Assembly: GCF_000527135.1 (NCBI RefSeq)
Contig: NZ_AZUP01000001.1
Coordinates: 1,488,001-1,552,000 of the forward strand
Length of the DNA stretch: 64,000 nt
From: Methyloversatilis discipulorum
Lineage (GTDB): Bacteria > Pseudomonadota > Gammaproteobacteria > Burkholderiales > Rhodocyclaceae
Direction of reading: 5' to 3'
Shown: positions 14,146 to 40,982 of the stretch, piece after piece
Numbering within the stretch: position 1 is the stretch's first letter
How the letters are laid out: each line of letters begins with the position of its first letter
Program-made: the position numbers and the translations under genes
Notes under the pieces: model-generated
Told to the model about the DNA's origin: nothing
The model's input: only the letters and a program-made list of their open reading frames with translations
Database searches by the model: none

Positions 14146-14170
14146 TACCGCGTGCAGCGGGCCGGCGGAC

Positions 14171-14734: not shown

Positions 14735-15078
14735 GGCTGACTCCGGTCTGGGTGGACGATCAGGCTGAGAGGCGACCGTCGCCCGGTTCTGCATGCATCA
14801 GCCATGCCCGCCTGGCACTGGCCTTGCACCGTGCAACGGGTCGCCGCATGCGCGATGGCGGAGAAATTCGCCGCCCGAATGCACCACATCGGTGCGGAAA
14901 CGGCTTACCGACGCGGCAAACCGCCTTGCCCCGTAGGCGCTGCCGCGACGCCCCATCGTGCAATCGCAGCCAGACGACACGACCGGATTCCGGACGCCGC
15001 ACTCCGGATACCGGACTCCCGACGCCACCCGCGCACCCGGCGACTGCCCGCCCTGCGCACCCGTTCAGGACCGCCACC
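14735..15078. other. Divergent cld/porin intergenic region
   Basis: 344 bp without a convincing gene. Small open frames on both strands are GC-driven. Near 14990-15030 a short CCGGA-type motif recurs several times in an imperfect tandem. No clear sigma-70 promoter was found by eye. Confidence 0.5.
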
Positions 15079-16236
15079 ATGACCTTCCGCCGCTTCACGC
15101 GTCTGCGATGGACGCCGCCCTTTCGCCACGCGCTGCTCGCCAGCGCAGCCCTGCTCTGCGCCGGAGCAGCCGATGCCCAGATGACCTTGCAGGGCCCGGG
15201 CGACAGTTCGCTGACGCTCGGCCTGTGGCTGCGTGCCTCCTACGTCAATGCCGAAGAGGCGCGTCCGGCCGGCGGCAGTGCGCACGACAGCGGCTTCACG
15301 ATGGATTCGGTCCGTCTGCTGTCGTCGGCGCAATTCACTCGTCGCATCGGCGCCACGATCACCTTCGAACGGCCGCCGGCGAAGGACATGCAGCTGCTCG
15401 ACGCCATCCTGCAGTTCGAACTGGCGGAAGGTCTGAACCTGTGGGCCGGCCGGCTGGTGCCGCCGACCGACCGCTCGAACATGGCGGGCAACCAGTTCGC
15501 CAACGTGTGGGGCTACCCCTTCGTGTCGCTCTATCCGAACGCCTTTACCGGCCGCGACGACGGCGTGCTGCTGTGGGGCAATCTGTACGCCGACCGGCTG
15601 CTCTACAGCGTCGGCGTGTTCGAGGGCAAGAACCGCGGCGGCGGTCTGTCGAACGCGTCGAACAATCCGCTGTTCGCCGCCCGCTTCGCCTGGAGCTTCC
15701 TCGATCCGGAACCCGGCTACTACGGCACCAGCACCTACTACGGCGACAAGGAGGTGTTCACGCTGGGCGCCGCCTTCATGAGCCAGAAGGACGGCGTGGG
15801 TCTGGCCGGCGCGCGCGGCGACTACCGCGCCTGGAACCTCGACGCGCTGTACGAGACCCGCCTGCGCTCCGGTGGCGTGCTCACGGTCGAGGCTGCCTGG
15901 TACGACTACGACACCGACGGCGTGGCCGACGTGGCGCCCGCCGACCCGCTCTGTTCGCGGGTGAGCAACTGCGGTGGCGCCTTGCAGGCGGACGCCGCAC
16001 TGCTCACCGTCGGCTACCTGATTCCGCACGCGCTGGGCCCTGGCCGCTTCCAGCCTTATGTACGCTTCCAGCGCCTCGATCCGGACGCCGGCGCACGCGC
16101 CGAACAGTGGGACGTCGGCACCAACTACGTCATCTCCGGACACAAGGCGCGCCTCACCGCGGTGTATTCGAGTGCGAAGAGCGAGGGCGCGGCCTCGCTC
16201 GACCGCTTCGTGCTCGGCCTGCAACTGCTGTACTAG
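15079..16236 (+). CDS. Outer-membrane porin, FmdC-like paralogue 1
   Basis: A 385-residue outer-membrane beta-barrel with a signal peptide (cleavage near ADAQ, residues 31-35) and a C-terminal Tyr (LQLLY), the usual end residue for outer-membrane assembly. It is clearly homologous to the porin at 27638, sharing VPPTDRSNMAG, NAFTGRDDG, LLWGN, GDYRAWN(L/I)DALYET, WYDYDTDGV and NCGG. That second copy sits directly after formamidase, as FmdC does in Methylophilus, so amides or urea are plausible solutes for this one too. AGGA upstream of ATG 15079. Ends 7 bp before the convergent response regulator gene. Confidence 0.85.
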   Translation: MTFRRFTRLRWTPPFRHALLASAALLCAGAADAQMTLQGPGDSSLTLGLWLRASYVNAEEARPAGGSAHDSGFTMDSVRLLSSAQFTRRIGATITFERPPAKDMQLLDAILQFELAEGLNLWAGRLVPPTDRSNMAGNQFANVWGYPFVSLYPNAFTGRDDGVLLWGNLYADRLLYSVGVFEGKNRGGGLSNASNNPLFAARFAWSFLDPEPGYYGTSTYYGDKEVFTLGAAFMSQKDGVGLAGARGDYRAWNLDALYETRLRSGGVLTVEAAWYDYDTDGVADVAPADPLCSRVSNCGGALQADAALLTVGYLIPHALGPGRFQPYVRFQRLDPDAGARAEQWDVGTNYVISGHKARLTAVYSSAKSEGAASLDRFVLGLQLLY

Positions 16237-16243
16237 GGCCGGT

Positions 16244-17146
16244 TCAGTCGCTGGACGCGCGCATCGCCAGCGCGGCGGCAGCGGCGCGGGTTTCGACGCC
16301 GAGCTTTTCGTAGATGTGCTCCAGGTGCTTGTTAACAGTGCGCGGGCTCATGCCGAGGATGTCGCCGATGTCGCGGTTGGTCTTGCCCTTGGCCAGCCAG
16401 GACAGCACTTCGGCCTCGCGCGGCGTCAGCTGGGCGCCGGCGATGCGGGTGCTCGATTCGCCGCGCTTTCTGACGTCGAGCAGCAGCATGTGTTCGCCCA
16501 GCCCCACCGCGCCCAGGCTGCGCGCATACAGCGCCTGATCGCCCTGCTCGCGCAGCAGGCGCGCGTCGGCGGCGGGATCCGCCGTGAGGCCGGCCGGGTC
16601 ACCCAGCCAGTCGGCGGTCGAGTTCGCCGCGGGGTCGATGCCGAACTGGCCCAGGCACTCCGCCGCACGCGGCGAACGCCAGGCGACACGACCCAGCGCA
16701 TCGACCACCAGCACGCCGAGGCCAGCCACGTCCACCGCCTGGCGGGCGATGCGCACCGCGCGCGCGTTGCGCACGTGGGCGGTCAGCCGCGCCAGCACCT
16801 CTTCAACGCGCAAGGGCTTGACCACGTAGTCGGTGCCGCCGGCGGTGAAACCTTCGACCACCTCGGCGGTGCCCGACAGGCCGGTCATGAAGATGACCGG
16901 CACATGAGTCAGCCCCGGCTCCTCACGGATGCGGCGGCAGGTTTCGAAGCCGGACAGGCCGGGCATCACCGCGTCGAGCAGGATGGCGTCCGGCACCACC
17001 CATTCGAGACGGGCCAGCGCCGACGCGCCGTCGTGCGCGATCAGCACGGTGTAGCCGGCCTGCGACAGCGCGTCGCACAGGAAGCCGAGCGAGTCAGGCG
17101 CGTCGTCGACGACGAGCACGACCGGTTGATGGAATTCAGAGAGCAT
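16244..17146 (-). CDS. LuxR-family two-component response regulator of the amide locus
   Basis: A 300-residue regulator: receiver domain at 8-125 (acidic pair DD at 14-15, phosphoacceptor D58 in AILLDAVMPGLSG, Lys in VKPLRVEE), a middle PAS-like segment at about 135-215, and a LuxR/NarL helix-turn-helix at about 238-298 (LTPREAEVLSWLAKGKTNRDIGDILG). Its ATG at 17146 lies inside the end of the hybrid kinase gene (11-bp overlap), so the two are translationally coupled and presumably a cognate pair. The likely target is the divergent ABC transporter/formamidase operon; an inverted repeat at 20753-20770 is a candidate site. Targets and signal are inferred from position. Confidence 0.88.
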   Translation of the reverse strand: MLSEFHQPVVLVVDDAPDSLGFLCDALSQAGYTVLIAHDGASALARLEWVVPDAILLDAVMPGLSGFETCRRIREEPGLTHVPVIFMTGLSGTAEVVEGFTAGGTDYVVKPLRVEEVLARLTAHVRNARAVRIARQAVDVAGLGVLVVDALGRVAWRSPRAAECLGQFGIDPAANSTADWLGDPAGLTADPAADARLLREQGDQALYARSLGAVGLGEHMLLLDVRKRGESSTRIAGAQLTPREAEVLSWLAKGKTNRDIGDILGMSPRTVNKHLEHIYEKLGVETRAAAAALAMRASSD

Positions 17147-20100
17147 GGGCGTCGCGTTGTAATAGTTGTGTGAAGCGTATGAGGTCGAAGCCGTCGACCA
17201 GCGCGCGCAGGCGACGGCAGTCTTCGCGCGCGGCGTCGGACCGTTCGGAAATCGCGTCCAGCAGCGTAGCGATGCCATTGACGTGACCCAGCCGCGACAG
17301 GCGCAGCAGCGCCGCGCGTTCTTCGTCGTCGAGCGCGGCCAGCGGCGCGTCGGCGGCCGGCTCGGCCTTCGGCGGCGCGGCGTCGGCCGGTTCGTCGACG
17401 TGCCAGGTGAGGTCCAGCGCCTCGCGCAACTGGTCGAGCAGTTCGGATTCCATCACCGGCTTGGGCACGAAACCGGCGCAGCCAGCGGTGCGCAGCAGCT
17501 CGCTGCGGTTCTCGAACACATTGGCCGACACCATCAGCACCGGTATCGGCGCGCCGTCGAATTCGCGCAGCCGGCGTGCGGTTTCCCAGCCGTCCATGCC
17601 GTCCATATTGATGTCCAGCAGCACCACGTCCGGGCGCACGCGGGCGACGCAGTCCAGCGCCTCGCGGCCGCTGGCCGCCTCGTCCACGTCGAAACCGAGC
17701 GGCGCCAGCATGCCGGTCAGCATGTGACGCTGGGTGGCGTCGTCGTCGACCAGCAGCACGCGCATGCGCGGACCTTCGTAGCCGATCACGGTGCGCATCG
17801 AGCGCGTCTGCGTCGGCACCGACAGGTATTCGGGCAGGTAAAGCCGCAGGCGGAAGGTCGAGCCGCGGCCGACCTCGCTCTCCAGCGTCAGTTCGCCGCC
17901 CATCAGCGAGGTGAGCATGCGGGTGATGCTCAAGCCCAGGCCGGTGCCCGGCTCGGCGATGACGCGGCCGCTGGCGCTGCGCTCGAACGGCATGAAGATG
18001 CGCGCGTGGTCGTCCGCCGCGATGCCGGGGCCGGTGTCGGCGATTTCGAAGCGCGCCACTTCCATCCGGTAATCGATGCGCAGCAGCACCTCGCCCTGCT
18101 CGGTGAACTTGACCGCGTTCGCCAGCAGGTTGATCAGCACCTGGCGCAGCCGCTTGGCATCGACGCGCACGTAGTCGGGCAGCCGGCCGGTCGTTTCGAT
18201 GCGGAACTGCAAGCCCTTGCGCGCCGCCTGCGGCTCGAACATCTTGGCCAGATCGTCCAGCAATTCGCGCAGCGGCATCGGCGCCGGGTCCAGCCTGAGC
18301 TTGCCGGCTTCGATGCGCGCCAGGTCGAGCAGACCGTCGATCAGGCCCAGCAGATGTTCGCCGCTGCGCAGGATGGTGCCCAGCGCGCGCTTCTGCGTGT
18401 CGTCGCTGCCGCCCTTGCCGGCGCTGCCGCTCTCCCGCAGCAGGATCTGCGCGTAACCGAGAATGCTGTTCAGCGGCGTGCGCAGTTCGTGGCTGATGCC
18501 GGTCACGTAGCGCGTCTTGGCGAGGTTGGCAGATTCGGCCGCATCCTTGGCCTTCTGCAGCGCGAGATCGGTTTTGCGGTGGGCATCGATTTCGCGCATC
18601 AGCAGCTGGTTCTGCCGGTTCGATTCGTCCTGCGCCAGCCGCCGGCTTTCCGAGCCAAGCACTATCCACCAGGCGCATACCGCGCACAGCAGCACCAGCA
18701 GCGCGAAGGTTTTCGACAGCGTGAGCTGCAGGCTGTCGCGCGCCGCCGGGTAGAGGCCGCTGACGATGGCTTCCTGATAGAACACGACGCCGAAGATGAC
18801 CGCCAGCAGCACGGTGAGCGACAGGAACACGACCAGGAAATGGCCGACGCGGAAGTTCACCCGTCGCGCCAGCTGCACCGGAAGGATGGCGTTCAGGAAG
18901 GCGTGCAGCTGGTCGGCAGCACTGGCGTCGGTCTTGCAGCGGTCGTGGCAGCGCGATTCGAGCGTGCAGCACAGCGAACAGATGGGCTGGCCGTAGGCCG
19001 GGCAGTAAGCCATGTCCTCGGACTCGAAGCTGTTTTCGCAGACGTGGCAGGTTACCGTCTGGCCCGGCCGCCACTGCGTGGCACTGCGCCGCGCGAGGTA
19101 GTAGCGGCCGCGCGTGGCGAGCGCGATCAATGGCGCGGTGACGAAGGCGGTGGCCAGCGATATGAAGGGCGAGAAGGCCTGCGCCATGTCGCCCATCCAG
19201 CCGGTGTAGGCGAGTACCGATACGACGGTGGCGATCAGCATCGAGCCGAGACCGACCGGATTGATCTCGTACAGATGGGCGCGCTTGAACTCGATGTGCG
19301 ACGGCGACAGCCCAAGCGGCTTGTTCACGACCAGGTCGGCCACCAGCGCGCCGACCCAGGCGATGGCGAGATTGGCGTACAGGCCGAGCACGTGCTCCAG
19401 CGCCTCGAACACGCCGAGCAGCATCAGCAGCAGCGCGATCACCACGTTGAACACCAGCCACACGACTCGACCCGGATGGCTGTGCGTGAGGCGGGCGAAG
19501 AAATTGGACCAGGCGAGCGAGCCGGCGTAGGCATTGGTCACGTTGATTTTCAGCTGCGACACGATGACGAACAGCGCGGTCACCGCCAGCACCACGGCCG
19601 GCGAATCGAACACGTAGGCAAAGCCGGCCAGGTACATCTGCGTCGGTTCGACCGCGCGGTCCACCGGCACCATGGCCTGCAGCGCGAGGAAGGCGAGGAA
19701 AGCCCCGCCCAGCATCTTCACCATGCCCGGCACCACCCAGCCGGGGCCGGCAATCAGCACCGAGGCCCACCAGCGCACCCGGTTCTCGCGCGTCTTCTCC
19801 GGCAGGAAACGCAGGTAATCGACCTGCTCACCGATCTGCACCACCAGCGAGATCGCCACCGTCGAGGCGGCACCGAACATGATCCAGTCGAATTCGCTGC
19901 TGCCCGAGCTGCGGCCGCTTAGGCCGGTGAATTCGGAATACAGATGCGGCGCCTGCCACCACACCGCGAGGTAGGGCAGTGCCAGCAGCACGATCCACAG
20001 CGGCTGCGTCCACAGCTGTATGCGGCTGATCAGCGTGACGCCGTGGATCACCAGCGGAATCACCACCACCGAGCACAGCAGATAGCTCCACGCCAACGGC

Positions 20101-20543
20101 AGGCCGAAATACATCTCGAAGGCGAGCGCCATGATGGCCGCCTCGATGGCGAAGAAGATGAAGGTGAAGCTCGCGTACACCAGCGAGGTGATGGTCGAGC
20201 CGAGATAGCCGAAGCCGGCGCCGCGCGTCAGCAGGTCCATGTCCACGCCGTACTTGGCGGCGCAGTAGCTGATCGGCAGGCCGGTCAGGAAGGTGATCAG
20301 CCCGACCAGCAGGATGGCATACAGCGCGTTGGTGAAGCCGTAGTTCAGCGCGATGGCGCCGCCGATCGCCTCCAGCGCGAGGAAGGACACCGCGCCGAAG
20401 GCCGTGTTGGCGACCCGCCACTCCGACCACTTGCGGAAGCTGCGCGGCGTGTAGCGCAGCGCGTAGTCCTCGAGCGTCTCGTTGGCGACCCAGGTGTTGT
20501 AGTCGCGGCGGATCTTGAATATCTGGTGGGTGGCTTCGGACAT
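17136..20543 (-). CDS. NCS1-permease/hybrid sensor histidine kinase/receiver fusion
   Basis: An 1135-residue membrane sensor. Residues about 40-475 form twelve hydrophobic segments resembling NCS1 purine/cytosine permeases. Then comes a Cys/His-rich stretch at 499-536 (CHVC, CPAYGQPICSLCC, CHDRC) that looks like a zinc ribbon, two more membrane segments (about 567-590 and 610-630), a short coiled coil, and a kinase core: H-box TGISHELRTPLN with H685, N-box INLLANAVKFTE, G1 DTGPGIA, G2 GTGLGLS. A receiver domain follows (DD at 933-934, D977), then an 80-residue helical tail. The transporter-like half probably senses or carries an amide, urea or related solute. ATG 20543 gives the normal NCS1 start. 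The gene is divergent from the transporter operon and overlaps its response regulator gene. Confidence 0.9.
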   Translation of the reverse strand: MSEATHQIFKIRRDYNTWVANETLEDYALRYTPRSFRKWSEWRVANTAFGAVSFLALEAIGGAIALNYGFTNALYAILLVGLITFLTGLPISYCAAKYGVDMDLLTRGAGFGYLGSTITSLVYASFTFIFFAIEAAIMALAFEMYFGLPLAWSYLLCSVVVIPLVIHGVTLISRIQLWTQPLWIVLLALPYLAVWWQAPHLYSEFTGLSGRSSGSSEFDWIMFGAASTVAISLVVQIGEQVDYLRFLPEKTRENRVRWWASVLIAGPGWVVPGMVKMLGGAFLAFLALQAMVPVDRAVEPTQMYLAGFAYVFDSPAVVLAVTALFVIVSQLKINVTNAYAGSLAWSNFFARLTHSHPGRVVWLVFNVVIALLLMLLGVFEALEHVLGLYANLAIAWVGALVADLVVNKPLGLSPSHIEFKRAHLYEINPVGLGSMLIATVVSVLAYTGWMGDMAQAFSPFISLATAFVTAPLIALATRGRYYLARRSATQWRPGQTVTCHVCENSFESEDMAYCPAYGQPICSLCCTLESRCHDRCKTDASAADQLHAFLNAILPVQLARRVNFRVGHFLVVFLSLTVLLAVIFGVVFYQEAIVSGLYPAARDSLQLTLSKTFALLVLLCAVCAWWIVLGSESRRLAQDESNRQNQLLMREIDAHRKTDLALQKAKDAAESANLAKTRYVTGISHELRTPLNSILGYAQILLRESGSAGKGGSDDTQKRALGTILRSGEHLLGLIDGLLDLARIEAGKLRLDPAPMPLRELLDDLAKMFEPQAARKGLQFRIETTGRLPDYVRVDAKRLRQVLINLLANAVKFTEQGEVLLRIDYRMEVARFEIADTGPGIAADDHARIFMPFERSASGRVIAEPGTGLGLSITRMLTSLMGGELTLESEVGRGSTFRLRLYLPEYLSVPTQTRSMRTVIGYEGPRMRVLLVDDDATQRHMLTGMLAPLGFDVDEAASGREALDCVARVRPDVVLLDINMDGMDGWETARRLREFDGAPIPVLMVSANVFENRSELLRTAGCAGFVPKPVMESELLDQLREALDLTWHVDEPADAAPPKAEPAADAPLAALDDEERAALLRLSRLGHVNGIATLLDAISERSDAAREDCRRLRALVDGFDLIRFTQLLQRDAHAL

Positions 20544-20901
20544 CGGGGCAGGCGCTGACGCGATCGAGGCCACACCATGCAAGAAATGCTCCGGGCAGCG
20601 AAACCGCGCGCTGCCCGGAGCCCAAGTGCAGCTTCCCTCCACGCCGCGCACCCCGACGGTGCCCTCGGCAACATCCTGGTGCAGTGCGACAGCGCAGGAT
20701 TCCACCTTAGCACCGGCCCACCTCGATCGCGGGTGTTGCGCCGAGTACGCACATACGTCAATCGACGTATTCCGGCTACGCACCCCCGAACACTACTTTT
20801 CGCTCCGCAGCGAGCGATTGCGGTGCAGTGCACAAAACGATTCAACGGCCGCAAGCGGATCGCCTGAAGCTCCCCAACCCCTTCCGCTCAGGAGAAACGA
20901 T
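20544..20901. other. Divergent control region between the hybrid kinase and the ABC operon
   Basis: 358 bp with no convincing gene. It contains the 18-bp inverted repeat at 20753-20770 and the urtA Shine-Dalgarno AGGAGA at 20890-20895. Promoters for both directions must lie here, but none matches the sigma-70 consensus well by eye. Confidence 0.6.
20753..20770. promoter_or_regulatory. Perfect inverted repeat, candidate response-regulator operator
   Basis: ATACGTC (20753-20759) and GACGTAT (20764-20770) are exact inverted copies with a 4-bp centre (AATC). A TAC...GTA core is usual for LuxR/NarL-type regulators. It lies 132 bp before the urtA ATG. Assignment to the response regulator at 16244 is inferred. 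Confidence 0.5.
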
Positions 20902-22173
20902 ATGGCTGACAAGAAAGACACGATTCCGGCTCCGCTCACCGACGAACAACGTCGCAAGGTTCTGCTCGGCATGGCGGCTGCACCGGCGCTGATGGTGCCC
21001 GGCGTCAGCTTCGGCAACGCGCAGTTCCCGACAGCCAAGGTCAATACGACCAAGCTCGCGGTGACCGATACCGAAGTCATCGTGGGTCAGCTGCACTCCG
21101 CCACCGGCACGATGGCGATTTCGGAAACCGGCTCGATCCAGGCCGAACAGCTGGCGATCGACCAGATCAACGCGATGGGCGGCATCCTCGGTCGCAAGAT
21201 CAAGGTGATCAAGGAAGACGGCGCCTCCGACTGGCCGACCTTCGCCGAGAAGTCGAAAAAGCTGCTGGTGAACGACAAGGTGGCCTGCGTGTTCGGCTGC
21301 TGGACCTCGGCCTCGCGCAAGGCGGTGCTGCCGGTGTTCGAAAAGGAGAACGGCCTGCTCTACTACCCGACCTTCTACGAAGGCCTGGAGCAGTCGAAGA
21401 ACGTCATCTACACCGGCCAGGAAGCGACCCAGCAGATCATCTGGGGTCTCGACTGGGCGTCGAAGGAAAAGAAGGCCAAGACCTACTTCCTGGTCGGCTC
21501 GGACTACATCTGGCCGCGTACGTCGATGAAGATCGCGCGCAAGCACATCGAGTCGGTCGGCAAGCTCGGCAAGGTGGTCGGCGAGGAGTACTACCCGCTC
21601 GGCCACACCAACTTCAACTCGCTGATCAACAAGATCAAGGTCGCCAAGCCGGACTGCATCTTCGCAGCCGTGGTCGGTGGCTCCAACGTGGCCTTCTACA
21701 AGCAGCTGAAGGCGGCCGGCATCACCGGCGTCAAGCAGTTCCTGCTGACGCTGTCGGTGACCGAGGACGAAATGCTGGGCGTCGGCGGTGAAAACTTCGC
21801 CGGCTTCTACTCCTCGATGAAGTACTTCCAGTCGCTCGACAACGCCAACAACAAGGCTTTCGTCGAGGCCTTCAAGAAGGCCTACGGTCCGAAGTCGGTG
21901 ATCGGCGACGTAACCCAGGCCGGCTATCTCGGCCCCTGGCTGTGGAAGGCGGCGGTCGAGAAGGCGGGCAGCTTCGATGTCGACAAGGTGGTCGCCGCCT
22001 CGCCCGGCATCGAACTGAAGAGCGCGCCGGAAGGCTACGTGAAGGTCCATGAGAACCATCACCTGTGGTCCAAGGCGCGCATCGCGCAGGGCCAGCCGGA
22101 CGGCACTTTCAAGGTGGTCGCCGAATCGGCCGACCTGATCGAACCCAACCCCTTCCCCAAGGGCTACCAGTAA
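20902..22173 (+). CDS. urtA: Urea/short-chain amide ABC transporter substrate-binding protein
   Basis: A 423-residue periplasmic binding protein of the branched-chain amino acid type, specifically the UrtA/FmdD branch. The N-terminus has a twin-arginine-like signal (QRRKVLLGMAAAPALM), so Tat export is possible. Then follow IVGQLHSATGTMAISETG, GGILGRKI, FGCWTSASRKAVLPVFE, LLYYPTFYEG and EATQQIIWGLDW, all characteristic of urea-binding UrtA. In Methylophilus the homologous FmdD binds short-chain amides and urea. AGGAGA fixes the ATG at 20902. First gene of the operon that continues with two permeases, two ATPases, formamidase and an FmdB-like protein; the substrate may be formamide, acetamide or urea. 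Confidence 0.93.
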   Translation: MADKKDTIPAPLTDEQRRKVLLGMAAAPALMVPGVSFGNAQFPTAKVNTTKLAVTDTEVIVGQLHSATGTMAISETGSIQAEQLAIDQINAMGGILGRKIKVIKEDGASDWPTFAEKSKKLLVNDKVACVFGCWTSASRKAVLPVFEKENGLLYYPTFYEGLEQSKNVIYTGQEATQQIIWGLDWASKEKKAKTYFLVGSDYIWPRTSMKIARKHIESVGKLGKVVGEEYYPLGHTNFNSLINKIKVAKPDCIFAAVVGGSNVAFYKQLKAAGITGVKQFLLTLSVTEDEMLGVGGENFAGFYSSMKYFQSLDNANNKAFVEAFKKAYGPKSVIGDVTQAGYLGPWLWKAAVEKAGSFDVDKVVAASPGIELKSAPEGYVKVHENHHLWSKARIAQGQPDGTFKVVAESADLIEPNPFPKGYQ

Positions 22174-22184
22174 GACCCCGGCGT

Positions 22185-22247
22185 GCCGCCCCGGCGCAGA
22201 CCGGGCGGCGCGCCTCCTTTCCCTGCACGGCCGGGCAGTGCCCGGCC
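22185..22247 (+). promoter_or_regulatory. Two tandem stem-loops between urtA and urtB
   Basis: The first hairpin spans 22185-22209 (GCCGCC..GG paired with CC.GGGCGGC). The second spans 22229-22247 (GGCCGGGC, AGT loop, GCCCGGCC). Neither has a T-run. Hairpins after binding-protein genes often stabilise or shorten the transcript, so that the binding protein is made in excess over the permeases. Confidence 0.5.
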
Positions 22248-22266
22248 AACCGTCCGGAGGTCCGTC

Positions 22267-23181
22267 ATGTCATTCGACGAAATCTACAACATCGCCCTGA
22301 TGCAGGGCTTCGCCGGGCTGAGCCTGTTCTCAGTCCTGCTGCTGATGGGCCTCGGCCTCGCCATCATCTTCGGCCAGATGGGCGTGATCAACATGGCACA
22401 TGGCGAATTCATGACCATCGGCGCCTACACCATCTTCATGTTCTCCAGCCTGACCGAAACCTATGCACCCGGGCTGGTGCAAGCCTATTTCCCGATCGCC
22501 ATCGTTGCCGCCTTCTTCATCGCCTTCGCCTTCGGCTGGCTGACAGAGTGGGCGCTTATACGGCATCTGTACAAACGTCCGCTGGATACGCTGCTCGCCA
22601 CCTGGGGTCTGTCGCTCGGCATGCAGCAGGTGTTCCGCTCCACCTTCGGTCCGAAGGAAGTGAGCCCCACCCTGCCCGAGTGGCTGATGGGTTCGTGGGC
22701 GCCGTCCGAAGGGCTGGACATCCCGATCAATGGCCTGTTCGTGCTCGGCCTCACCGCCGTGGTGACCGGCGGCGTGCTGCTCGCGCTGTACAAGTCGCGC
22801 TGGGGTCTGCGTGTGCGCGCCACCGTCGCCAACCGCGCGATGGCCAACGCCACCGGCATCAACACCAAGCGCACCGACCGCCTCACCTTCGCCATCGGCT
22901 GCGGCATCGCCGGCGTGGCCGGCGCAGCCTTCACCACCATCGGCTCCACCGGTCCGACCTCCGGTTCGCTCTACATCGTCGATGCCTTCCTGGTGGTGAC
23001 CTTCGGCGGCGCGGCTTCGCTGCTCGGCACCGTGGCCTCGGCCTTCGGCATCGCCCAGACGCAGTCCATCGCCGAGTTCTTCCTGACCGGCTCGATGGCC
23101 AAGGTGCTCACGCTGCTGCTCATCGTGACCATCCTGATGATCCGTCCGCAGGGCCTCTTCGCTTCGAAGATCCGCCGCTGA
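22267..23181 (+). CDS. urtB: Urea/amide ABC transporter permease, UrtB-type
   Basis: A 304-residue inner-membrane permease of the LivH type with eight or more hydrophobic helices. Typical motifs are IFGQMGVINMAHGEFMTIGAY near the N-terminus, TWGLSLGMQQVFRSTFGPKEV, and the ATPase-coupling loop RWGLRVRATVANRAMANATGINT. The QVINMAHGE-like sequence and the RATVANR loop fit UrtB/FmdE. It follows urtA by 93 bp containing the hairpins. ATG 22267 is chosen because GGAGG lies just upstream and the protein then starts as in LivH-type permeases. Confidence 0.92.
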   Translation: MSFDEIYNIALMQGFAGLSLFSVLLLMGLGLAIIFGQMGVINMAHGEFMTIGAYTIFMFSSLTETYAPGLVQAYFPIAIVAAFFIAFAFGWLTEWALIRHLYKRPLDTLLATWGLSLGMQQVFRSTFGPKEVSPTLPEWLMGSWAPSEGLDIPINGLFVLGLTAVVTGGVLLALYKSRWGLRVRATVANRAMANATGINTKRTDRLTFAIGCGIAGVAGAAFTTIGSTGPTSGSLYIVDAFLVVTFGGAASLLGTVASAFGIAQTQSIAEFFLTGSMAKVLTLLLIVTILMIRPQGLFASKIRR

Positions 23182-23221
23182 ACGCGATCCGCACCGACTT
23201 CGCACCTTCCAGGAGATTCAC

Positions 23222-24415
23222 ATGGACGCATTCAAGAACTGGGTTGCACGAACCGGAATGGGGAGCGTGCTCATCCTCGCGCTCGTCATCATGGTCGTGT
23301 TCCCGCTGACGATGGACATCTTCCGTCTGAACCTCGTCGGCAAATACCTCACCTACGCCTTCGTCGCCGTCGGCCTGGTCATGCTGTGGGGCTACGGCGG
23401 CATCCTGAGCCTGGGCCAGGGCTGCTTCTTCGGCCTCGGCGGCTACATGATGGCGATGTTCCTGAAGCTCGAGGCATCCGATCCGGAATCGACCAAGATC
23501 CAGAGCACGCCGGGCATTCCGGACTTCATGGACTGGAACCAGATCACCGAGCTGCCGTTCTGGTGGGAGCCGTTCCACCACCTGCCGCTGGCGCTGATCG
23601 CGGTGGTCGTGGTGCCGATGCTGTTGGCGTTCATCATCAGCTTCGCCATGTTCAAGCGCCGGGTCGGTGGCGTGTATTTCGCCATCATCACGCAGGCGGT
23701 GGCGCTCATCCTGACCGTGCTCATCATCGGCCAGCAGGGCTACACCGGCGGTGTCAATGGCATCACCGACCTGAAGACCCTGCTCGGCTGGGACATCCGC
23801 GACGACTCGTCGAAGTACGTCCTGTACTTCGTCAATGCCGCGCTGCTGATCGGCGTCATCCTGCTCTGCCGCTGGATACAGATGTCCAAGCTCGGCACCC
23901 TGCTGCTGGCGATGCGCGACAAGGAAGACCGCGTGCGCTTCTCCGGCTACGACGTGGCGATGTTCAAGGTGTTCGTGTTCGTACTGGCGGCCGGCATCTC
24001 GGCCATCGGCGGCGCGATGTTCACGCTGCAGGTCGGCTTCATGTCGCCGTCCTTCGTCGGCATCGTGCCGTCGATCGAAATGGTCATCTTCGCCGCGGTC
24101 GGCGGTCGCATGTCGCTGGTCGGCGCGGTGTATGGCGCGCTGCTGGTCAATGCCGGCAAGACCTACTTCTCCGAGAGTGCGCCCGACCTCTGGCTGTTCC
24201 TGATGGCCGCGCTGTTCATCGGCGTCGTGCTCGCCTTCCCCAACGGTCTGGCCGGTCTGTACGAAAGCCACATCAAGCCCTGGTTCTCGCGCCGCAAGTC
24301 CGTCGCCAAGCCGGCTGCGTCCGCGGGCGAACCGCCGGCACCGCCCTCGGCCCCCACCAACAAGTCCGCACCGCCCGCCGCGCTGCCCGGCGGCGTACAG
24401 GGCCAGTCGGCCTGA
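23222..24415 (+). CDS. urtC: Urea/amide ABC transporter permease, UrtC-type
   Basis: A 397-residue LivM-type inner-membrane permease. It begins after AGGAG, and has about nine to ten hydrophobic helices. The family motif WGYGGILSLGQGCFFGLGGYMMAMFLKL is at the start of the channel domain, and ATPase coupling involves the loop LLLAMRDKEDRVRFSGYDV. An inserted segment after the first helices (EASDPESTKIQSTPGIPDFMDWNQ) is normal for UrtC/FmdF. The C-terminal ~40 residues are an unusual Ala/Pro/Ser-rich tail (KPAASAGEPPAPPSAPTNK) that looks disordered. It pairs with UrtB in the membrane. Confidence 0.92.
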   Translation: MDAFKNWVARTGMGSVLILALVIMVVFPLTMDIFRLNLVGKYLTYAFVAVGLVMLWGYGGILSLGQGCFFGLGGYMMAMFLKLEASDPESTKIQSTPGIPDFMDWNQITELPFWWEPFHHLPLALIAVVVVPMLLAFIISFAMFKRRVGGVYFAIITQAVALILTVLIIGQQGYTGGVNGITDLKTLLGWDIRDDSSKYVLYFVNAALLIGVILLCRWIQMSKLGTLLLAMRDKEDRVRFSGYDVAMFKVFVFVLAAGISAIGGAMFTLQVGFMSPSFVGIVPSIEMVIFAAVGGRMSLVGAVYGALLVNAGKTYFSESAPDLWLFLMAALFIGVVLAFPNGLAGLYESHIKPWFSRRKSVAKPAASAGEPPAPPSAPTNKSAPPAALPGGVQGQSA

Positions 24416-24443
24416 GCCGCGCCCGACCTGACAGGAGACCGAC

Positions 24444-25187
24444 ATGAGCAATACCGACTTCGTACTGGCGATCGAGGACCTGACCGTGTCCTTCGACGGC
24501 TTCAAGGCGATCGACGCGCTGACCCTCTACGTCGATCGCGGTGAGCTGCGCGTGATCATCGGCCCGAACGGCGCCGGCAAGACCACGCTGCTCGACCTGA
24601 TCTGCGGCAAGACCAAGGCCAGCGGCGGCAGCATCAAGTTCAAGAACGTGGAAATGACCAAGCTGCAGGAACACAAGATCGTGCGCGCCGGCATCGGCCG
24701 CAAGTTCCAGACGCCGTCGATCTACGAAAACCTTTCGGTGTTCAAGAACCTGGAAGTGTCCTTCCCGCGCGGCCGCAGCGTGCTCGGCGCGCTCGGCTTC
24801 CGCTGCACCGACGAGGTGAAGGCGCGCGTGCAGTCGGTGGCCGACGAGATCGGCCTCGGCGACGCACTCGACACCGAAGCCGGCCTGCTCAGCCACGGCC
24901 AGAAGCAGTGGCTGGAGATCGGCATGTTGCTGATGCAGGAGCCGGAGCTGCTGATGCTCGACGAACCGATCGCCGGCATGAGCGTGCGCGAACGCGAACT
25001 GACCGCCGAACTGCTGCAGCGCATCTGCAAGGGCCGCTCGGTGATCGTGATCGAGCACGACATGGATTTCGTCAAGCGCATCGCCCACAAGGTCACCGTC
25101 ATGCACCAGGGAAAGATCCTCGCCGAAGGATCGATGGACAAGGTGCAGAACGATCCCAAGGTCATCGACGTTTATCTGGGCCACTGA
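24444..25187 (+). CDS. urtD: Urea/amide ABC transporter ATP-binding protein, UrtD-type
   Basis: A 247-residue LivG-type ATPase. Walker A is GPNGAGKTTL, the signature region reads LSHGQKQWLEIGMLL and Walker B is LLMLDEPIAGMS, followed by the switch His in VIVIEHDMDFVKRIA. The signature LSHGQ instead of LSGGQ is characteristic of the UrtD subgroup. It powers import together with UrtE. GGAG precedes the ATG at 24444. Confidence 0.94.
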   Translation: MSNTDFVLAIEDLTVSFDGFKAIDALTLYVDRGELRVIIGPNGAGKTTLLDLICGKTKASGGSIKFKNVEMTKLQEHKIVRAGIGRKFQTPSIYENLSVFKNLEVSFPRGRSVLGALGFRCTDEVKARVQSVADEIGLGDALDTEAGLLSHGQKQWLEIGMLLMQEPELLMLDEPIAGMSVRERELTAELLQRICKGRSVIVIEHDMDFVKRIAHKVTVMHQGKILAEGSMDKVQNDPKVIDVYLGH

Positions 25188-25233
25188 GTCGGCAGCCCCG
25201 CCTACGCGCCAGTCACCGAGAAAGGACACCACC

Positions 25234-25923
25234 ATGCTGAACGTCAAGGACCTCCACGTCGCCTACGGGCAGAGCGAGGCACTGCACGGCATCTCGTTCG
25301 AAGCCAACGCCAACGAAACGGTCGCCATCATGGGCCGCAACGGCATGGGCAAGACCACGCTGTTCAAGTCGCTGATCGGCATCCTGCCGCTGAAGAGCGG
25401 CCAGATCGAAGTTGCCGGCAACGAAGTATCGAAGGACGAAAGCTACAAGCGCGTCGCCAAGGGCATCGCCTACGTGCCGCAGGGCCGGATGATTTTCCCG
25501 ACGCTCACGGTCGAGGAGAACATCCACACCGGCCTCGAAAATGCCAAGGTCAAGAAGGTGCCGGACGAGATCTACGCCCTCTTCCCGGTGCTGTGGGAAA
25601 TGCGCCGCCGCAAGGGCGGCAACCTGTCGGGTGGTCAGCAGCAACAGCTGGCCATCGCCCGCGCGCTGGTGACCGACCCCAAGGTGCTGCTGCTCGACGA
25701 GCCGACCGAAGGCATACAGCCCTCGATCATCAAGGACATCGCGCGCGCACTGAACGAAATCCGCAAGTTGCGCCAGATCACCATCGTCGTATCCGAGCAG
25801 GTGCTGAGCTTCGCGATGGACGTGGCCGACCGCCTGTTCGTCATCGAAGGCGGCCGCCTGGTCCATGAAAGCACCCGCGCGGAAACCGATACCGCGCACA
25901 TCAAGCAGTTCCTGTCCGTCTGA
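25234..25923 (+). CDS. urtE: Urea/amide ABC transporter ATP-binding protein, UrtE-type
   Basis: A 229-residue LivF-type ATPase and the second nucleotide-binding subunit. Walker A is GRNGMGKTTL, signature NLSGGQQQQLAIARAL, Walker B LLLDEPTEGIQPS, and the switch residue is Gln (VVSEQVLSF) rather than His, which is normal for LivF/UrtE. The family motif YVPQGRMIFPTLTVEENI is present. The start ATG 25234 follows AAAGGA. Its stop lies 55 bp before the formamidase gene, continuing the operon. Confidence 0.94.
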   Translation: MLNVKDLHVAYGQSEALHGISFEANANETVAIMGRNGMGKTTLFKSLIGILPLKSGQIEVAGNEVSKDESYKRVAKGIAYVPQGRMIFPTLTVEENIHTGLENAKVKKVPDEIYALFPVLWEMRRRKGGNLSGGQQQQLAIARALVTDPKVLLLDEPTEGIQPSIIKDIARALNEIRKLRQITIVVSEQVLSFAMDVADRLFVIEGGRLVHESTRAETDTAHIKQFLSV

Positions 25924-25978
25924 CCCCGCCCACCGCCGCAACACCGCCCCAACGCCCCTTCCACCCAAGGAGATCAAC

Positions 25979-27208
25979 ATGGCAGAGACCCTGATCAAGG
26001 TAGACCTGAAGCAGTCGCCGTATGAGAACGACATGGTGCATAACCGCTGGCACCCGGACATCCCCATTGTCGCGTGGGTGAAGCCGGGCGACGACTTCAA
26101 GATCGAAACCTACGACTGGACCGGCGGCTACATCCAGAACAACGACAGCGCCGACGACGTGCGCGACGTCGACCTGACCACGGTGCACTTCCTGTCCGGC
26201 CCGATCGGCGTCGAAGGCTGCGAGCCGGGCGACTTGCTGGTGGTCGACATCCTCGACATCGGCGCCAAGGAAGACAGCCTGTGGGGCTTCAACGGCTTCT
26301 TCTCGAAGAAGAACGGCGGCGGCTTCCTGACCGACCACTTCCCGCTGGCACAGAAGTCGATCTGGGACATCAAGGGCATGTTCACCGAGTCGCGCCACGT
26401 GCCGGGCGTCAAGTACGCCGGCCTGATCCACCCGGGCCTGATCGGTTGCCTGCCCGATCCCAAGCTGCTCGAAGAGTGGAACAAGCGCGAGATCGACTTC
26501 ATCAACACCGACCCCGAGCGCGTGCCGCCGCTGGGCTGCCCGCCCTGCGCGCCGACCGCGCACATGGGTCGCCTGAAGGGCGAGGCGCGCGACAAGGCGG
26601 CGATGGAAGGCGCACGCACCGTGCCGCCGCGCGAACACGGCGGCAACTGCGACATCAAGGATCTGTCGCGCGGCTCGCGCATCTACTTCCCGGTCTATGT
26701 GAAGGGCGGCGGCCTGTCGATGGGCGACCTGCACTTCTCGCAAGGCGACGGTGAAATCACCTTCTGCGGCGCCATCGAAATGGCCGGCTGGCTGCACCTG
26801 CGGGTGAACATCATCAAGGACGGCATGAAGAAGTACGCGGTCAAGAACCCGATCTTCAAGCCCAGCCCGATCACGCCCAAGTACGACGACTACCTCATCT
26901 TCGAAGGCATTTCGGTCGACGAACAGGGCAAGCAGCACTACCTCGACGTGCATGTGGCGTACCGCCAGGCCTGCCTGAACGCGATCGAGTACCTGAAGAA
27001 ATTCGGCTACTCGGGCGCCCAGGCCTACTCGATCCTCGGTACGGCGCCGGTGCAGGGCCACATCAGCGGCGTGGTCGACATTCCGAACGCCTGCGCGACG
27101 CTGTGGCTGCCGACCGACATCTTCGACTTCGACATCATGCCGACCGAAGCCGGTCCGCAGAAATTCCTCGACGGCAGCGTGCAGATGCCGATCTCGGAAG
27201 ACGTCTGA
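25979..27208 (+). CDS. fmdA: Formamidase
   Basis: A 409-residue cytoplasmic amidohydrolase of the acetamidase/formamidase family, which splits formamide to formate and ammonia. It aligns throughout with Methylophilus FmdA: RWHPDIPIVAWVKPGDDFKIETYDWTGG, VDLTTVHFLSGPIGVEG, GCPPCAPTAHMG, PPREHGGNCDIKDLSRGSRIYFPVYVKG and MGDLHFSQGDGEI. The usual length is about 405-410. AAGGAG at 25966-25971 fixes the ATG at 25979; the frame open from 25865 is an overrun into urtE. Placed after the transporter genes, it explains why a urea-type transporter is here: the imported solute is probably formamide, with urea as an alternative. No urease genes are in the window. Confidence 0.95.
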   Translation: MAETLIKVDLKQSPYENDMVHNRWHPDIPIVAWVKPGDDFKIETYDWTGGYIQNNDSADDVRDVDLTTVHFLSGPIGVEGCEPGDLLVVDILDIGAKEDSLWGFNGFFSKKNGGGFLTDHFPLAQKSIWDIKGMFTESRHVPGVKYAGLIHPGLIGCLPDPKLLEEWNKREIDFINTDPERVPPLGCPPCAPTAHMGRLKGEARDKAAMEGARTVPPREHGGNCDIKDLSRGSRIYFPVYVKGGGLSMGDLHFSQGDGEITFCGAIEMAGWLHLRVNIIKDGMKKYAVKNPIFKPSPITPKYDDYLIFEGISVDEQGKQHYLDVHVAYRQACLNAIEYLKKFGYSGAQAYSILGTAPVQGHISGVVDIPNACATLWLPTDIFDFDIMPTEAGPQKFLDGSVQMPISEDV

Positions 27209-27218
27209 GGACGCTGCC

Positions 27219-27548
27219 ATGCCGACCTACGACTTTCACTGCGAGGCGCATGGCAGCTTTTCCGCCATGCGCAGCATCGCGCAGCGGGATGCGCCCTGCC
27301 TCTGCCCGGCCTGCGGCCAGCCGGCCGCACGCCAGCTGATTTCGGCGCCGGCCTTCGCCGACATGCCGGGCCAGCTGCGCAGCGCGCACGCCACCAACGA
27401 ACGCGCACGCCACGAGCCCAAGCTGGCCAGCCGCACGCACGGCCCCGGCTGCTCGTGCTGCAGCGGCAAGCCCAGCAAGACCACGGCCGTCGCGCGCGAC
27501 GGCTCCAAGGCCTTCCCGACGAAACGCCCCTGGATGATCAGTCACTGA
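27219..27548 (+). CDS. fmdB: FmdB-family zinc ribbon protein
   Basis: A 109-residue small protein starting MPTYDFHCEAHGSF, the FmdB/CxxC_CXXC_SSSS opening. Here the first Cys pair is C-x2-H (CEAHG) rather than the usual CEACG, while the second pair CPACG is intact. A basic linker (HATNERARHEPKL) leads to a C-terminal CSCC. The homologue in Methylophilus was named a regulator of the formamidase operon, but the function of the family is not proven. The gene starts 10 bp after fmdA, so it is translated from the same transcript. Confidence 0.85.
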   Translation: MPTYDFHCEAHGSFSAMRSIAQRDAPCLCPACGQPAARQLISAPAFADMPGQLRSAHATNERARHEPKLASRTHGPGCSCCSGKPSKTTAVARDGSKAFPTKRPWMISH

Positions 27549-27637
27549 TCGCCCGGTCCGCCCCATTTGCAGTCCGTCATTGCAGTCCGCTCTTTGAACC
27601 TCGCACCTTGAACCTCAACAACCGGGAGTCCAGCACC

Positions 27638-28774
27638 ATGAAAAACATCACCAAGAACCGTCTGCGCAAAGCCAGTGCTCTTGCCGTCGCGCTCGCCGCC
27701 TGCGGCAGCGCGAACGCGGGCGTCACCGTTGCCGGTCCCGGCGAAAGCTATCTGACGCTCAGCCTGTGGGCGCGCACCTCCTACACCAACGCCGAAGACG
27801 CGGCACCGAACGGCACCTCGCGTTCGAACGACTTCTCGGTGGATTCGGTCCGTATCATCACCAGCGGCAAGATCACCAAGAACATCGGCGGCATGATCAA
27901 CTTCGAGCGCCAGTCCGACGAGTCGATGCGCATCCTCGACGCGGTCGCCCAGTTCGAACTGACCGAAGGCGTGAATTTCTGGTTCGGCCGCATGCTGCCG
28001 CCGACCGACCGCGCCAACATGGCTGGCCCCTACTTCGCCAACGTGTGGGAATACCCGATGGTGTCGCAGTACCCGAACGCCTTCACCGGCCGCGACGACG
28101 GCGCGCTGCTGTGGGGTAACGTGCTCGGCGGCAAGCTGCTGTACTCGGTCGGCGCCTACCAGGGCAAGAACCGCGGCACCGGCCTGTCGAACGACTCGGA
28201 CGATCCGCTGTACGCCACCCGTATCGCCTACAGCTTCCTCGATCCGGAACTGGGCTACTACGGCACCAACAGCTATTTCGGCAGCAAGGAAATCTTCACC
28301 GTCGGCATGGCCTACCAGATGCAGAAGAACGGTGTCGGCACCGCACTCGCCCGCGGCGACTACCGCGCATGGAACATCGACGCGCTGTACGAAACCAAGC
28401 TCGCCAGCGGCGGCGTGATGACGCTGGAAGGCGCCTGGTACGACTACGACACCGACGGCGTGACCGACGTGACGGCCGGCAACATCCTCTGCACCAATGT
28501 GAACAACTGCGGCGGCGCACAGGCCGGCGACGCCTGGCTGCTGACCGCCGCCTACCTGATCCCGACCAAGATCGGCATCGGCCAGTTCCAGCCCTACACC
28601 CGCTACCAGAAGTTCAACGCCGACACCGGCGGCGACACCAAGCAGTGGGACTTCGGCCTGACCTATGTGATGGCCGGCCACAACGCACGCATCACCGCGG
28701 TGTACTCCGACATGGAAAACGCCGCCGGTACCGACACCGACAAGTTCGTGCTCGGCGTGCAGCTGATGTACTGA
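27638..28774 (+). CDS. Outer-membrane porin FmdC-like, paralogue 2
   Basis: A 378-residue outer-membrane barrel with a signal peptide (cleavage near ANAG) and a C-terminal Tyr (VQLMY). It should let amides cross the outer membrane. It belongs to the same family as the 15079 porin, with VAGPGESYLTLSLWARTSYTNAED near the N-terminus against the other's LQGPGDSSLTLGLWLRASYVNAEE. It follows fmdB by 89 bp and ends in an intrinsic terminator, so it is the last gene of the operon. In Methylophilus, fmdC lies upstream of fmdA; here it is downstream. Confidence 0.87.
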   Translation: MKNITKNRLRKASALAVALAACGSANAGVTVAGPGESYLTLSLWARTSYTNAEDAAPNGTSRSNDFSVDSVRIITSGKITKNIGGMINFERQSDESMRILDAVAQFELTEGVNFWFGRMLPPTDRANMAGPYFANVWEYPMVSQYPNAFTGRDDGALLWGNVLGGKLLYSVGAYQGKNRGTGLSNDSDDPLYATRIAYSFLDPELGYYGTNSYFGSKEIFTVGMAYQMQKNGVGTALARGDYRAWNIDALYETKLASGGVMTLEGAWYDYDTDGVTDVTAGNILCTNVNNCGGAQAGDAWLLTAAYLIPTKIGIGQFQPYTRYQKFNADTGGDTKQWDFGLTYVMAGHNARITAVYSDMENAAGTDTDKFVLGVQLMY

Positions 28775-28820
28775 TCCACCTCGACCCACCGGCGCGCAGG
28801 GCGCCGGGCCGGTCGATTCC

Positions 28821-28847
28821 AGGGCACGCTGCGGCGTGCCCTTTTTT
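28821..28847 (+). terminator. Rho-independent terminator of the amide operon
   Basis: Arms AGGGCACGC and GCGTGCCCT (loop TGCG) are followed by six T. It lies 47 bp past the porin stop codon and closes the urtA-porin operon. Confidence 0.85.
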
Positions 28848-28934
28848 GCGTCCATGCGACACCGGTCACCGCGACGGGCAGCAACGATGCGCCGCGTCAC
28901 CGCCCTGTCACACGGATGGGCTTGAATCGGCGGC

Positions 28935-29750
28935 GTGAATGCTCCCGATCCTCTCGTTCGGCGCGTGCGCGCCATCTTCCTGTCGGACATCCACCTTGGT
29001 ACACGTGGATGCCAGGCCGAGGCGCTGCTCGATTTCCTGCGCCACCACGAATCCGACTACCTCTACCTCGTGGGCGACATCATCGACTTCTGGGCGATGA
29101 GCCGCTCCATACACTGGACGCCGTCGCAGAACACCGTCGTGCAGAAGATCCTGCGCCGCGCGCGCAAGGGCACCCAGGTCATCTTCATCCCGGGCAATCA
29201 CGACGAGGCGCTGCGTGAATACACCGGCACCGTGTTCGGCGACATCGAACTGCAGCGTGAGTACATCCATCAGGCTGCCGACGGTCGCCGTTACTGGCTC
29301 GTGCATGGCGACGACTTCGATCAGGTCACGCGCCACCACCGCTGGGTCGCCCTGCTCGGTGACGTCGCCTACAACCTGCTGGTCAGCATCAACTCGCGGC
29401 TGTCCTGGCTGCGCCGCACGCTGGGCATCGCCGGCTACTGGTCGCTGGCCGGCTATGCCAAGCGCAAGGTGAAGAGCGCGGTCAGCTTCATCTACGACTT
29501 CGAGGATTCGGTCATGCACGAGGCGCGCACGCGCGGCGTCGATGGCGTGATCTGCGGTCACATCCACGCGGTGTCGTTGCGCGAGGTGCAGGGGCTCACC
29601 TACATGAACTGCGGCGACTGGGTGGACAGCTGCACCGCCATCGTCGAACACGCCGACGGCCGCTTCGCCATCGTCGACTGGGGGCAGGAACTGCGCGCCG
29701 CCGGACCGCGCACGGCGCTGGCAGTGGAGGAAGAGACGGCCGAGGCCTGA
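28935..29750 (+). CDS. UDP-2,3-diacylglucosamine diphosphatase-like metallophosphoesterase
   Basis: A 271-residue calcineurin-type phosphoesterase of the LpxH2 kind, expected to act on a nucleotide-linked lipid such as UDP-2,3-diacylglucosamine in lipid A synthesis. Metal-binding motifs are complete: DIHLG (18-22), GDIIDFW, GNHDE, HGDDFD and GHIH. The segment after GDIIDFW and the basic helix near WLRRTLGIAGYW fit this group more than general phosphatases. The start is a GTG at 28935 (MNAPDPLVRRVRAIFLSDIH); no ATG in frame is nearer. Substrate is inferred; a true LpxH may lie elsewhere in the genome. Confidence 0.82.
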   Translation: MNAPDPLVRRVRAIFLSDIHLGTRGCQAEALLDFLRHHESDYLYLVGDIIDFWAMSRSIHWTPSQNTVVQKILRRARKGTQVIFIPGNHDEALREYTGTVFGDIELQREYIHQAADGRRYWLVHGDDFDQVTRHHRWVALLGDVAYNLLVSINSRLSWLRRTLGIAGYWSLAGYAKRKVKSAVSFIYDFEDSVMHEARTRGVDGVICGHIHAVSLREVQGLTYMNCGDWVDSCTAIVEHADGRFAIVDWGQELRAAGPRTALAVEEETAEA

Positions 29751-29825
29751 GCCCTCAGGAGGATGGCGGCCATTGCGGCCGACAGCCTCTGAGCCGATCG
29801 CGGCGCACTGCCCACCGCCGCAGTC

Positions 29826-29847
29826 GGGGTCAGAAGACCCCTCCCAC
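29826..29847 (-). repeat. REP-like palindrome, inverted partner of 29889
   Basis: The stem GGGGTC (29826-29831) and GACCCC (29836-29841) are joined by an AGAA loop. The minus-strand reading begins GTGGGAG, the same seven bases that start the plus-strand element at 29889. The two face each other like a BIME pair. Confidence 0.5.
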
Positions 29848-29888
29848 AGATTCCTCGCTCCGGCCGCGGGTCGGACACGCCCCCCCTA

Positions 29889-29910
29889 GTGGGAGCGGCC
29901 TTGGCCGCGA
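29889..29910 (+). repeat. REP-like palindrome
   Basis: It starts GTGGGAG, followed by the palindrome GCGGCCTTGGCCGC. It matches the pattern of REP elements in Pseudomonas and related genera. It lies in the convergent gap between the LpxH-like gene and hmp. Confidence 0.55.
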
Positions 29911-29927
29911 CGGACCGCAGACTTCGA

Positions 29928-40779: not shown

Positions 40780-40982
40780 CTCTCTCTCCCTGAGTTCCCG
40801 ATCGGCCACGCGGTGGCGCGTCGATCAGCGTTAACCAACGGGAGCGACCCACTGGACTTTATGGTTGAGAAACGAAAATTTTCCAGGCGTGTTCAATCTC
40901 TGGACACTTTTTCTTCAATGAACACATGGGTTTAACGAAGTCGGACATGGTGCGGGGCAGCACGACGGCCACCGCGGGCAGA

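Follow-up and report, generated by a model that had tools for sequence, protein, structure and literature searches.

We analysed a gene module of Methyloversatilis discipulorum (NCBI RefSeq assembly GCF_000527135.1, contig NZ_AZUP01000001.1) in a stretch of 64,000 nucleotides (positions 1,488,001 to 1,552,000 of the forward strand), which is called the window here and whose first letter is position 1 of all coordinates. The module comprises the genes of a permease-kinase fusion and of a response regulator on the minus strand, divergent from a urtABCDE-fmdA-FmdB-family-porin operon on the plus strand, and we propose that it may be a two-component system that responds to short amides or urea, with a transporter fold as receptor. 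A previous inspection of the DNA alone (the sequence-only reading) had picked out the fusion and suggested that its permease half senses amides or urea and thereby controls the operon. The features are given below, with the basis of assignment in parentheses.

17136..20543, minus strand: hybrid sensor kinase with predicted NCS1-fold input, 1135 amino acids (translation, Pfam, structure models)
19113..20423, minus strand: predicted NCS1-fold permease domain of the sensor, residues 41-477
18936..19049, minus strand: eight-cysteine segment, residues 499-536, with C499, C502, C514, C522, C525, C526, C532 and C536 (alignment, structure model)
18669..18854, minus strand: pair of predicted helices, from residue 564 to about 625 (structure model)
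17427..18518, minus strand: HisKA, HATPase_c and receiver, residues 676-1039, with H685 and the receiver motif LLDINM from 975 (Pfam, motifs)
16244..17146, minus strand: response regulator with receiver and LuxR-type helix-turn-helix, 300 amino acids (Pfam)
20754..20769, no strand: palindrome TACGTCAATCGACGTA, predicted operator of the regulator (comparative intergenic analysis)
20579..20592, minus strand: sigma54-like element GGAGCATTTCTTGC, ending 35 bp before the sensor start (intergenic pattern count, sigma54 consensus)
20902..22173, plus strand: urtA-type substrate-binding protein (NCBIfam TIGR03407, over cut-off)
22267..23181, plus strand: urtB permease (NCBIfam, over cut-off)
23222..24415, plus strand: urtC permease (NCBIfam, over cut-off)
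24444..25187, plus strand: urtD ATPase (NCBIfam, over cut-off)
25234..25923, plus strand: urtE ATPase (NCBIfam, over cut-off)
25979..27208, plus strand: fmdA formamidase (Pfam; NCBIfam NF045496, 772.7 bits, cut-off 500)
27219..27548, plus strand: FmdB-family zinc-ribbon protein with RPWMISH (NCBIfam, over cut-off)
27638..28774, plus strand: operon porin, FmdC-like by position (NCBIfam porin_ExtI match below cut-off)
15079..16236, plus strand: second porin, convergent with the regulator at the other module end (60% identical to the operon porin)

The sensor gene runs from an ATG at 20543 to a stop at 17136, and its product matches HisKA, HATPase_c and Response_reg of Pfam with the conserved motifs present, as in hybrid histidine kinases; HELRTPL starts at residue 685, making H685 the H-box histidine. 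Response_reg and GerE were matched by the regulator, as in LuxR/NarL-type response regulators, and its ATG at 17146 lies inside the end of the kinase gene, giving an overlap of 11 bp (17136-17146). UrtABCDE and FmdA all pass curated cut-offs and are encoded in one orientation. The 1135-residue fusion of permease, cysteine cluster, kinase and receiver, the overlapping LuxR regulator, the role of H685 and the divergent amide/urea ABC operon with formamidase, FmdB-like protein and porin are thus as the sequence-only reading had described them, the porin at a score below cut-off. STAC, PAS and SLC5 were not found in the kinase, where only three named Pfam families appeared (E up to 0.1) in a library unchecked for the presence of a STAC model.

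The assignment of the permease half to NCS1, which had been taken as given, held in part. The Pfam NCS1 model PF02133 does not match this half, and the standalone permease of locus L183 fails it likewise. The predicted fold is the NCS1 variant of the LeuT fold, and in structure comparison the closest solved folds are the cytosine transporter CodB and the hydantoin transporter Mhp1 over residues 24-512, at an identity of only 14-16%, with SLC5 chains ranking well below CodB. A profile including the distant relatives L014, L015 and L018 matched CodB weakly (E 0.0032); with these rows removed, CodB was unlisted up to E 10. L015, which passes PF02133, is 27% identical to the permease half. Predicted fold, weak CodB match and L015 together suggest that this half is an NCS1 member.

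Between permease and kinase lies the cysteine segment, all eight cysteines of which are kept in 123 of 124 compared sequences, and the pocket-side polar residues are identical in 124/124. The pocket itself was placed relative to CodB and Mhp1 from the weak CodB profile alignment and from what is known of these transporters, so that no single binding residue is claimed. Residue counts and the tree described below left out the truncated pieces L186_17455, L195_3 and L282_3322 as well as L290. The model of the cysteine segment shows short strands and one helix (predicted local distance difference test, pLDDT, about 56-75), followed by two predicted helices (H564-594 and H599-659), the second of which continues into the kinase; judged from their hydrophobic sequence, both may be transmembrane.

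To describe the spread of the sensor, residues 1-640 were used as query, giving at least 8000 protein homologues at E <= 0.001, the best 120 of which were listed and whose lengths exclude plain permeases; over the part searched, the sensor is 100% identical to M. discipulorum proteins. The fusion is present in 13/13 genomes of the genus, and the sensor domain in 15/276 genomes of the class, 52/300 of the order and 72/397 of the phylum, the last count including about 10 weak matches to other permeases. In GTDB, at least 579 relatives are encoded (579 of 599 candidate stretches). Some relatives already carry the database name 'purine-cytosine permease-like'. With the fusion in every genome of the genus and the gene order kept over a phylum, chance or artefact was rejected as an explanation.

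The sequence-only reading needs qualifying in that some relatives keep the input but have a different kinase output. Read by eye, short kinases lacking a receiver stand beside FmdA in L173, L245 and L253, HPt-like tails follow in L176 and L180, and L193 carries PAS-like repeats; neighbouring regulators vary as well (REC-EAL beside L173, REC-HisKA-HATPase beside L245). The permease also occurs alone. In L183 (11231-12910), a standalone protein of 559 amino acids with all eight cysteines stands directly before fmdA-fmdB-amiE and adjoins a full sensor, and in L194 (8983-10605) one of 540 amino acids with a decayed cysteine cluster directly follows ureG; from these positions both are candidate urea/formamide transporters. 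At least 5987 homologues of standalone size pass E 0.001 (7999 candidates scored), and among the best 120 many come from acidophiles, e.g. Acidithiobacillus and Acidihalobacter, while a few are cut-off fusions. Separately, L032 encodes another complete sensor kinase (16783-20283), accompanied by a regulator of its own, about 5 kb from the fmd-linked sensor.

These relatives bear on which part of the protein senses. If the cysteine segment, as a metal, redox or iron-sulphur site, were the true sensor, the permease half would be an anchor or a reporter of transport flux, and the cysteines are indeed as constant as the pocket. Since the segment is also kept in the kinase-less L183 permease, it belongs with the permease, and the invariance of the pocket-side polar residues likewise argues against this explanation, which we regard as unlikely. 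The NCS1 pocket is probably the ligand-binding site.

The sequence-only reading would have been refuted by NCS1-kinase homologues showing no linkage to amide genes. We examined up to 9 kb of sequence to either side of the sensor in three genome draws and searched for UrtA-E, FmdA, AmiE and urease by tblastn, with BLAST thresholds set manually. The order draw excludes the window's locus together with fragment G552 and a second piece of G091; the class draw again excludes the window's locus, as well as G091, which counts toward the order draw, and G103 serves as control there; the phylum draw excludes genomes already in other draws and weak matches, three of which serve as controls. At least one urt, fmd, amiE or urease gene was found near the sensor in 47/52 order, 53/57 phylum and 6/14 class loci, the class draw being small with truncated contigs. 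The refuting outcome thus did not occur. Restricted to loci of at least 17 kb, the counts are 40/44, 52/54 and 6/9. Near the distant kinase-less permease relatives used as controls such genes occur in 0/4 cases (PF02133 was checked on one of the four, L196, the locus of L015). FmdA is present in 30/52, 33/57 and 4/14 loci and urease alpha in 19/52, 8/57 and 1/14 (order, phylum, class), and the divergent sensor/urtA layout of the window recurs in 19 order, 32 phylum and 3 class loci. Among the 80 nearest GTDB loci, automatic clustering with crude ORF (open reading frame) picking placed UrtA in at least 60 and FmdA in at least 35. On a tree of 124 sensor domains, a quick one without mixture model and with some long branches flagged, the genomic settings fall into clusters, with at least six switches between amide and urease surroundings, which indicates that one sensor module serves amide and urea modules. 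The linkage favours the proposed amide sensing. Amide operons are not the sole setting of this sensor family, many members of which stand beside urease instead.

As for the ligand, the closest solved folds transport cytosine and hydantoin. Like other NCS1 proteins, the permease half might accordingly recognise uric acid, allantoin, hydantoin, cytosine or a similar product of purine or pyrimidine breakdown, with urea and amides only downstream; purine breakdown yields urea, which would explain the urease neighbours. Against this, formamidase and Urt importers are the neighbours met most often, the standalone relatives are located in formamidase and urease clusters, and no purine-breakdown enzyme was noticed among the annotated neighbours, a selection of all neighbours. 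We consider such a ligand improbable, and the neighbours allow the strong inference that the ligand is probably an amide or urea.

The window's genome has two genes for urease alpha, one of which lies about 2 kb from a second urtA (61% identical), and a PF02133 scan of the genome revealed no ordinary NCS1 permease. Since urea thus seems to be served elsewhere and an ordinary NCS1 permease was not found, the fmd-linked importer would most simply be an amide importer, in line with published suggestions on comparable clusters (PMC3098086, PMC13209695).

Control of the operon was addressed in the intergenic region. The palindrome TACGTC-N4-GACGTA at 20754-20769 is perfect, ends 133 bp before the urtA start and is the sole perfect copy in the 4.3-Mb genome; with up to two mismatches, 52 copies occur genome-wide, fewer than of a reversed control pattern (174). 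For comparison, 135 divergent sensor/urtA loci were thinned to 91 by shared 8-mers and length; gene starts in the intergenic and operator analyses were extrapolated from tblastn offsets. TACG-N8-CGTA is the strongest of all 4+4 dyads and occurs in 78 of the 91 regions, compared with about 0.1 on average in shuffles, where any dyad reached at most 19, and the full 16-mer with up to two mismatches occurs in 76/91 regions versus 2/91 shuffled. In the draws, this core lies within 350 bp upstream of 47/58 UrtA, 17/23 UrtA-like, 52/126 sensor, 9/67 FmdA and 3/8 porin genes, and of 0/114 response regulator, 0/33 AmiE, 0/60 FmdB and none of 74-79 genes each for UrtB-E. It is closer to urtA (median 94.5 bp) than to the sensor (155.5 bp), with a tighter spread, and in L156, L166, L168 and L275-L278 it stands in front of Urt-like operons at a distance of 4-6 kb from a sensor gene that itself lacks it upstream.

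The palindrome also tracks the presence of the sensor. We compared 29 further urtA-type loci of the order, 14 from genomes without a detected sensor and 15 from sensor-bearing genomes: the core occurs in 0/14 of the former, including one urtA 80% identical to that of the window, and in 8/15 of the latter, three of them poor matches to the full palindrome. Regulators with TACGTC-type sites mostly carry the recognition helix VNKHLE (N in 48/50), while with TACGC-N6-GCGTA sites the helix is mostly VDKHLE or VTKHLE (N in 2/7); 16 of the 91 had no helix-turn-helix in the locus, and the match of helix and site follows ancestry and is therefore supportive, not proof. The palindrome is the predicted operator of the regulator, and control of the operon by kinase and regulator, until now a suggestion from gene order, gains support; this LuxR-type regulator very likely governs the operon.

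Upstream of the sensor, GG-N8-TTGC ends 25-49 bp before the start in 32/91 regions, compared with 1-8 regions in other 25-bp bins and 0-3 in the urtA direction, so that, for some of the family, it is plausible that the sensor is under nitrogen control. Enrichment of NtrC sites is weak (15/91 toward urtA at up to two mismatches, 5.6 when shuffled), and a sigma-70 scan of 20400-21000 found nothing, which is little proof of promoter absence. A perfect 13-bp inverted repeat (20588-20621, minus strand) just before the sensor start overlaps the upstream part of the sigma54-like element; folded with the leader, this hairpin is no stronger than shuffles (z -0.91) and was rejected as a special structure. 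A response to nitrogen shortage in general, with the palindrome serving only autoregulation of the sensor gene, would fit the sigma54-like element and the usual position of the palindrome in the shared divergent region, but is the least probable explanation and very unlikely, given the closer and tighter placement toward urtA and the Urt-like operons that have the palindrome where the distant sensor does not.

We therefore return to the two-component system for short amides or urea, in which the permease half would bind the ligand and the regulator would activate the importer operon, and to which we assign a probability of about 0.7 from comparative sequence analysis. In the proposed sequence of events, nitrogen shortage would lead to expression of sensor and regulator from a sigma54-type promoter. 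The NCS1 pocket would then bind a small carbonyl amide, here most likely formamide or another short amide and in urease-linked relatives most likely urea. A conformational change would be relayed by the cysteine segment and the helix pair, reach the kinase and alter phosphorylation of the LuxR-type regulator, which on TACGTC-N4-GACGTA would activate urtABCDE-fmdAB-porin, so that amides are imported and hydrolysed for nitrogen.

Several observations weigh against this proposal, besides the weak class draw and the shared ancestry of helix and site. The deep-branching fusions L176, L180, L190 and L193 have no urea/amide neighbours. With up to three mismatches, the palindrome count in the window (15) does not exceed the chance mean (16), and the exact core is missing in 13 of the 91 intergenic regions. 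It is likewise absent within 350 bp of 30/30 UreA genes and from 7/15 urtA loci of sensor-bearing genomes (L304-L310), including urease-type loci. In P. stutzeri A1501, an ntrC mutant surpassed the wild type in its use of formamide and acetamide (PMC8443478), which argues against simple NtrC activation.

Transporter-fused kinases are known from other families. In CbrA and MxtR/CrbS, a LeuT-fold transporter domain is fused to a histidine kinase; as outlined in the cited sections of PMC7918813, CbrA consists of SLC5/SSS domain, STAC, PAS and kinase, MxtR additionally has a receiver, and Brucella melitensis has PrlS, an SSS hybrid kinase whose partner is a LuxR-type regulator. The sensor described here differs by its predicted NCS1 fold (by structure), by the eight-cysteine segment with two helices in the position of STAC and PAS in CbrA, and by the urea/amide linkage. 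The ammonium sensor kinase Ks-Amt5 resembles it in that a nitrogen-nutrient transporter was recruited as kinase input but has an Amt fold and, in the sections cited, is described without LuxR partner or target operon (PMC5764959). The NCS1 fold would thus join SLC5 and Amt as kinase input. The word 'NCS1' is absent from the CbrA preprint (PMC13022988) and the SSS review (PMC7918813), and GrtK (PMC12918730) was rejected as a known relative, as its input is PilS-like. CodB and Mhp1 share the fold over the aligned residues at low identity, but here PF02133 is unmatched, and kinase and cysteine segment are added.

Amide and urea transport in Methylophilus is reportedly a comparable system. Clusters with the gene content found here, urtABCDE-fmdA-fmdB-amiE, are known from P. 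veronii Yu15, which grows on formamide and acetamide (PMC13209695), and from Bradyrhizobium (blr0968-0973), for which an amide substrate was proposed in 2010 (PMC3098086); the cited parts of both papers describe them without sensor or operator. For urt operon III of Ectopseudomonas guguanensis G3, a 2026 annotation paper (PMC13296017) lists a hybrid kinase together with a two-component regulator of the LuxR family next to urtABCDE, and in its relevant section permease nature, family and operator are unmentioned. Within the open-licence full text of PubMed Central, to which the search was confined with subscription papers outside its scope, neither an NCS1-kinase fusion nor a TACGTC-N4-GACGTA operator was found described.

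Beyond this locus, a wider generalization is offered tentatively, at slightly less than even chances. There may be a very large, unnamed family of bacterial amide/urea receptors derived from NCS1 transporters, in which permease and eight-cysteine segment form a movable input module, attached to hybrid, receiver-less and PAS- or HPt-bearing kinases or, alone, acting as probable urea/formamide permease in amide and urease clusters of acidophiles. Permease and receptor would share the cysteine segment for coupling or gating, and regulator and palindrome would define a general amide/urea-import regulon. The sensor family has at least thousands of members unseen by the Pfam NCS1 model and would provide a receptor candidate, with a precise predicted operator, for short amides and urea, which are widespread nitrogen sources. 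As the forms with and without a kinase have pocket and cysteine segment in common, this family could illustrate the path from transporter to receptor, and a formamide- or urea-responsive promoter would serve biotechnology.

Some further features were observed. A second Urt-like ABC type, about 40% identical, stands beside the sensor in L073, L090, L093, L267, L268 and others, in several cases next to urease. An Rfam scan of window positions 14000-30000 gave no match, which is little proof of absence. Downstream of the regulator, a 207-residue protein (14171-14794, minus strand), matched neither by Pfam (E up to 1e-5) nor by NCBIfam (E up to 0.1), has counterparts at the same place in L020 (72%) and L032 (60%). 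The two porins flank the module at both ends; of 124 sensor loci, 8 have porin relatives, and L161 and L164 each show a copy of the palindrome core some 200 bp upstream of such a gene. Elsewhere in the window (38743-40809, minus strand), a FIST-domain protein is fused to a chemoreceptor signalling domain.

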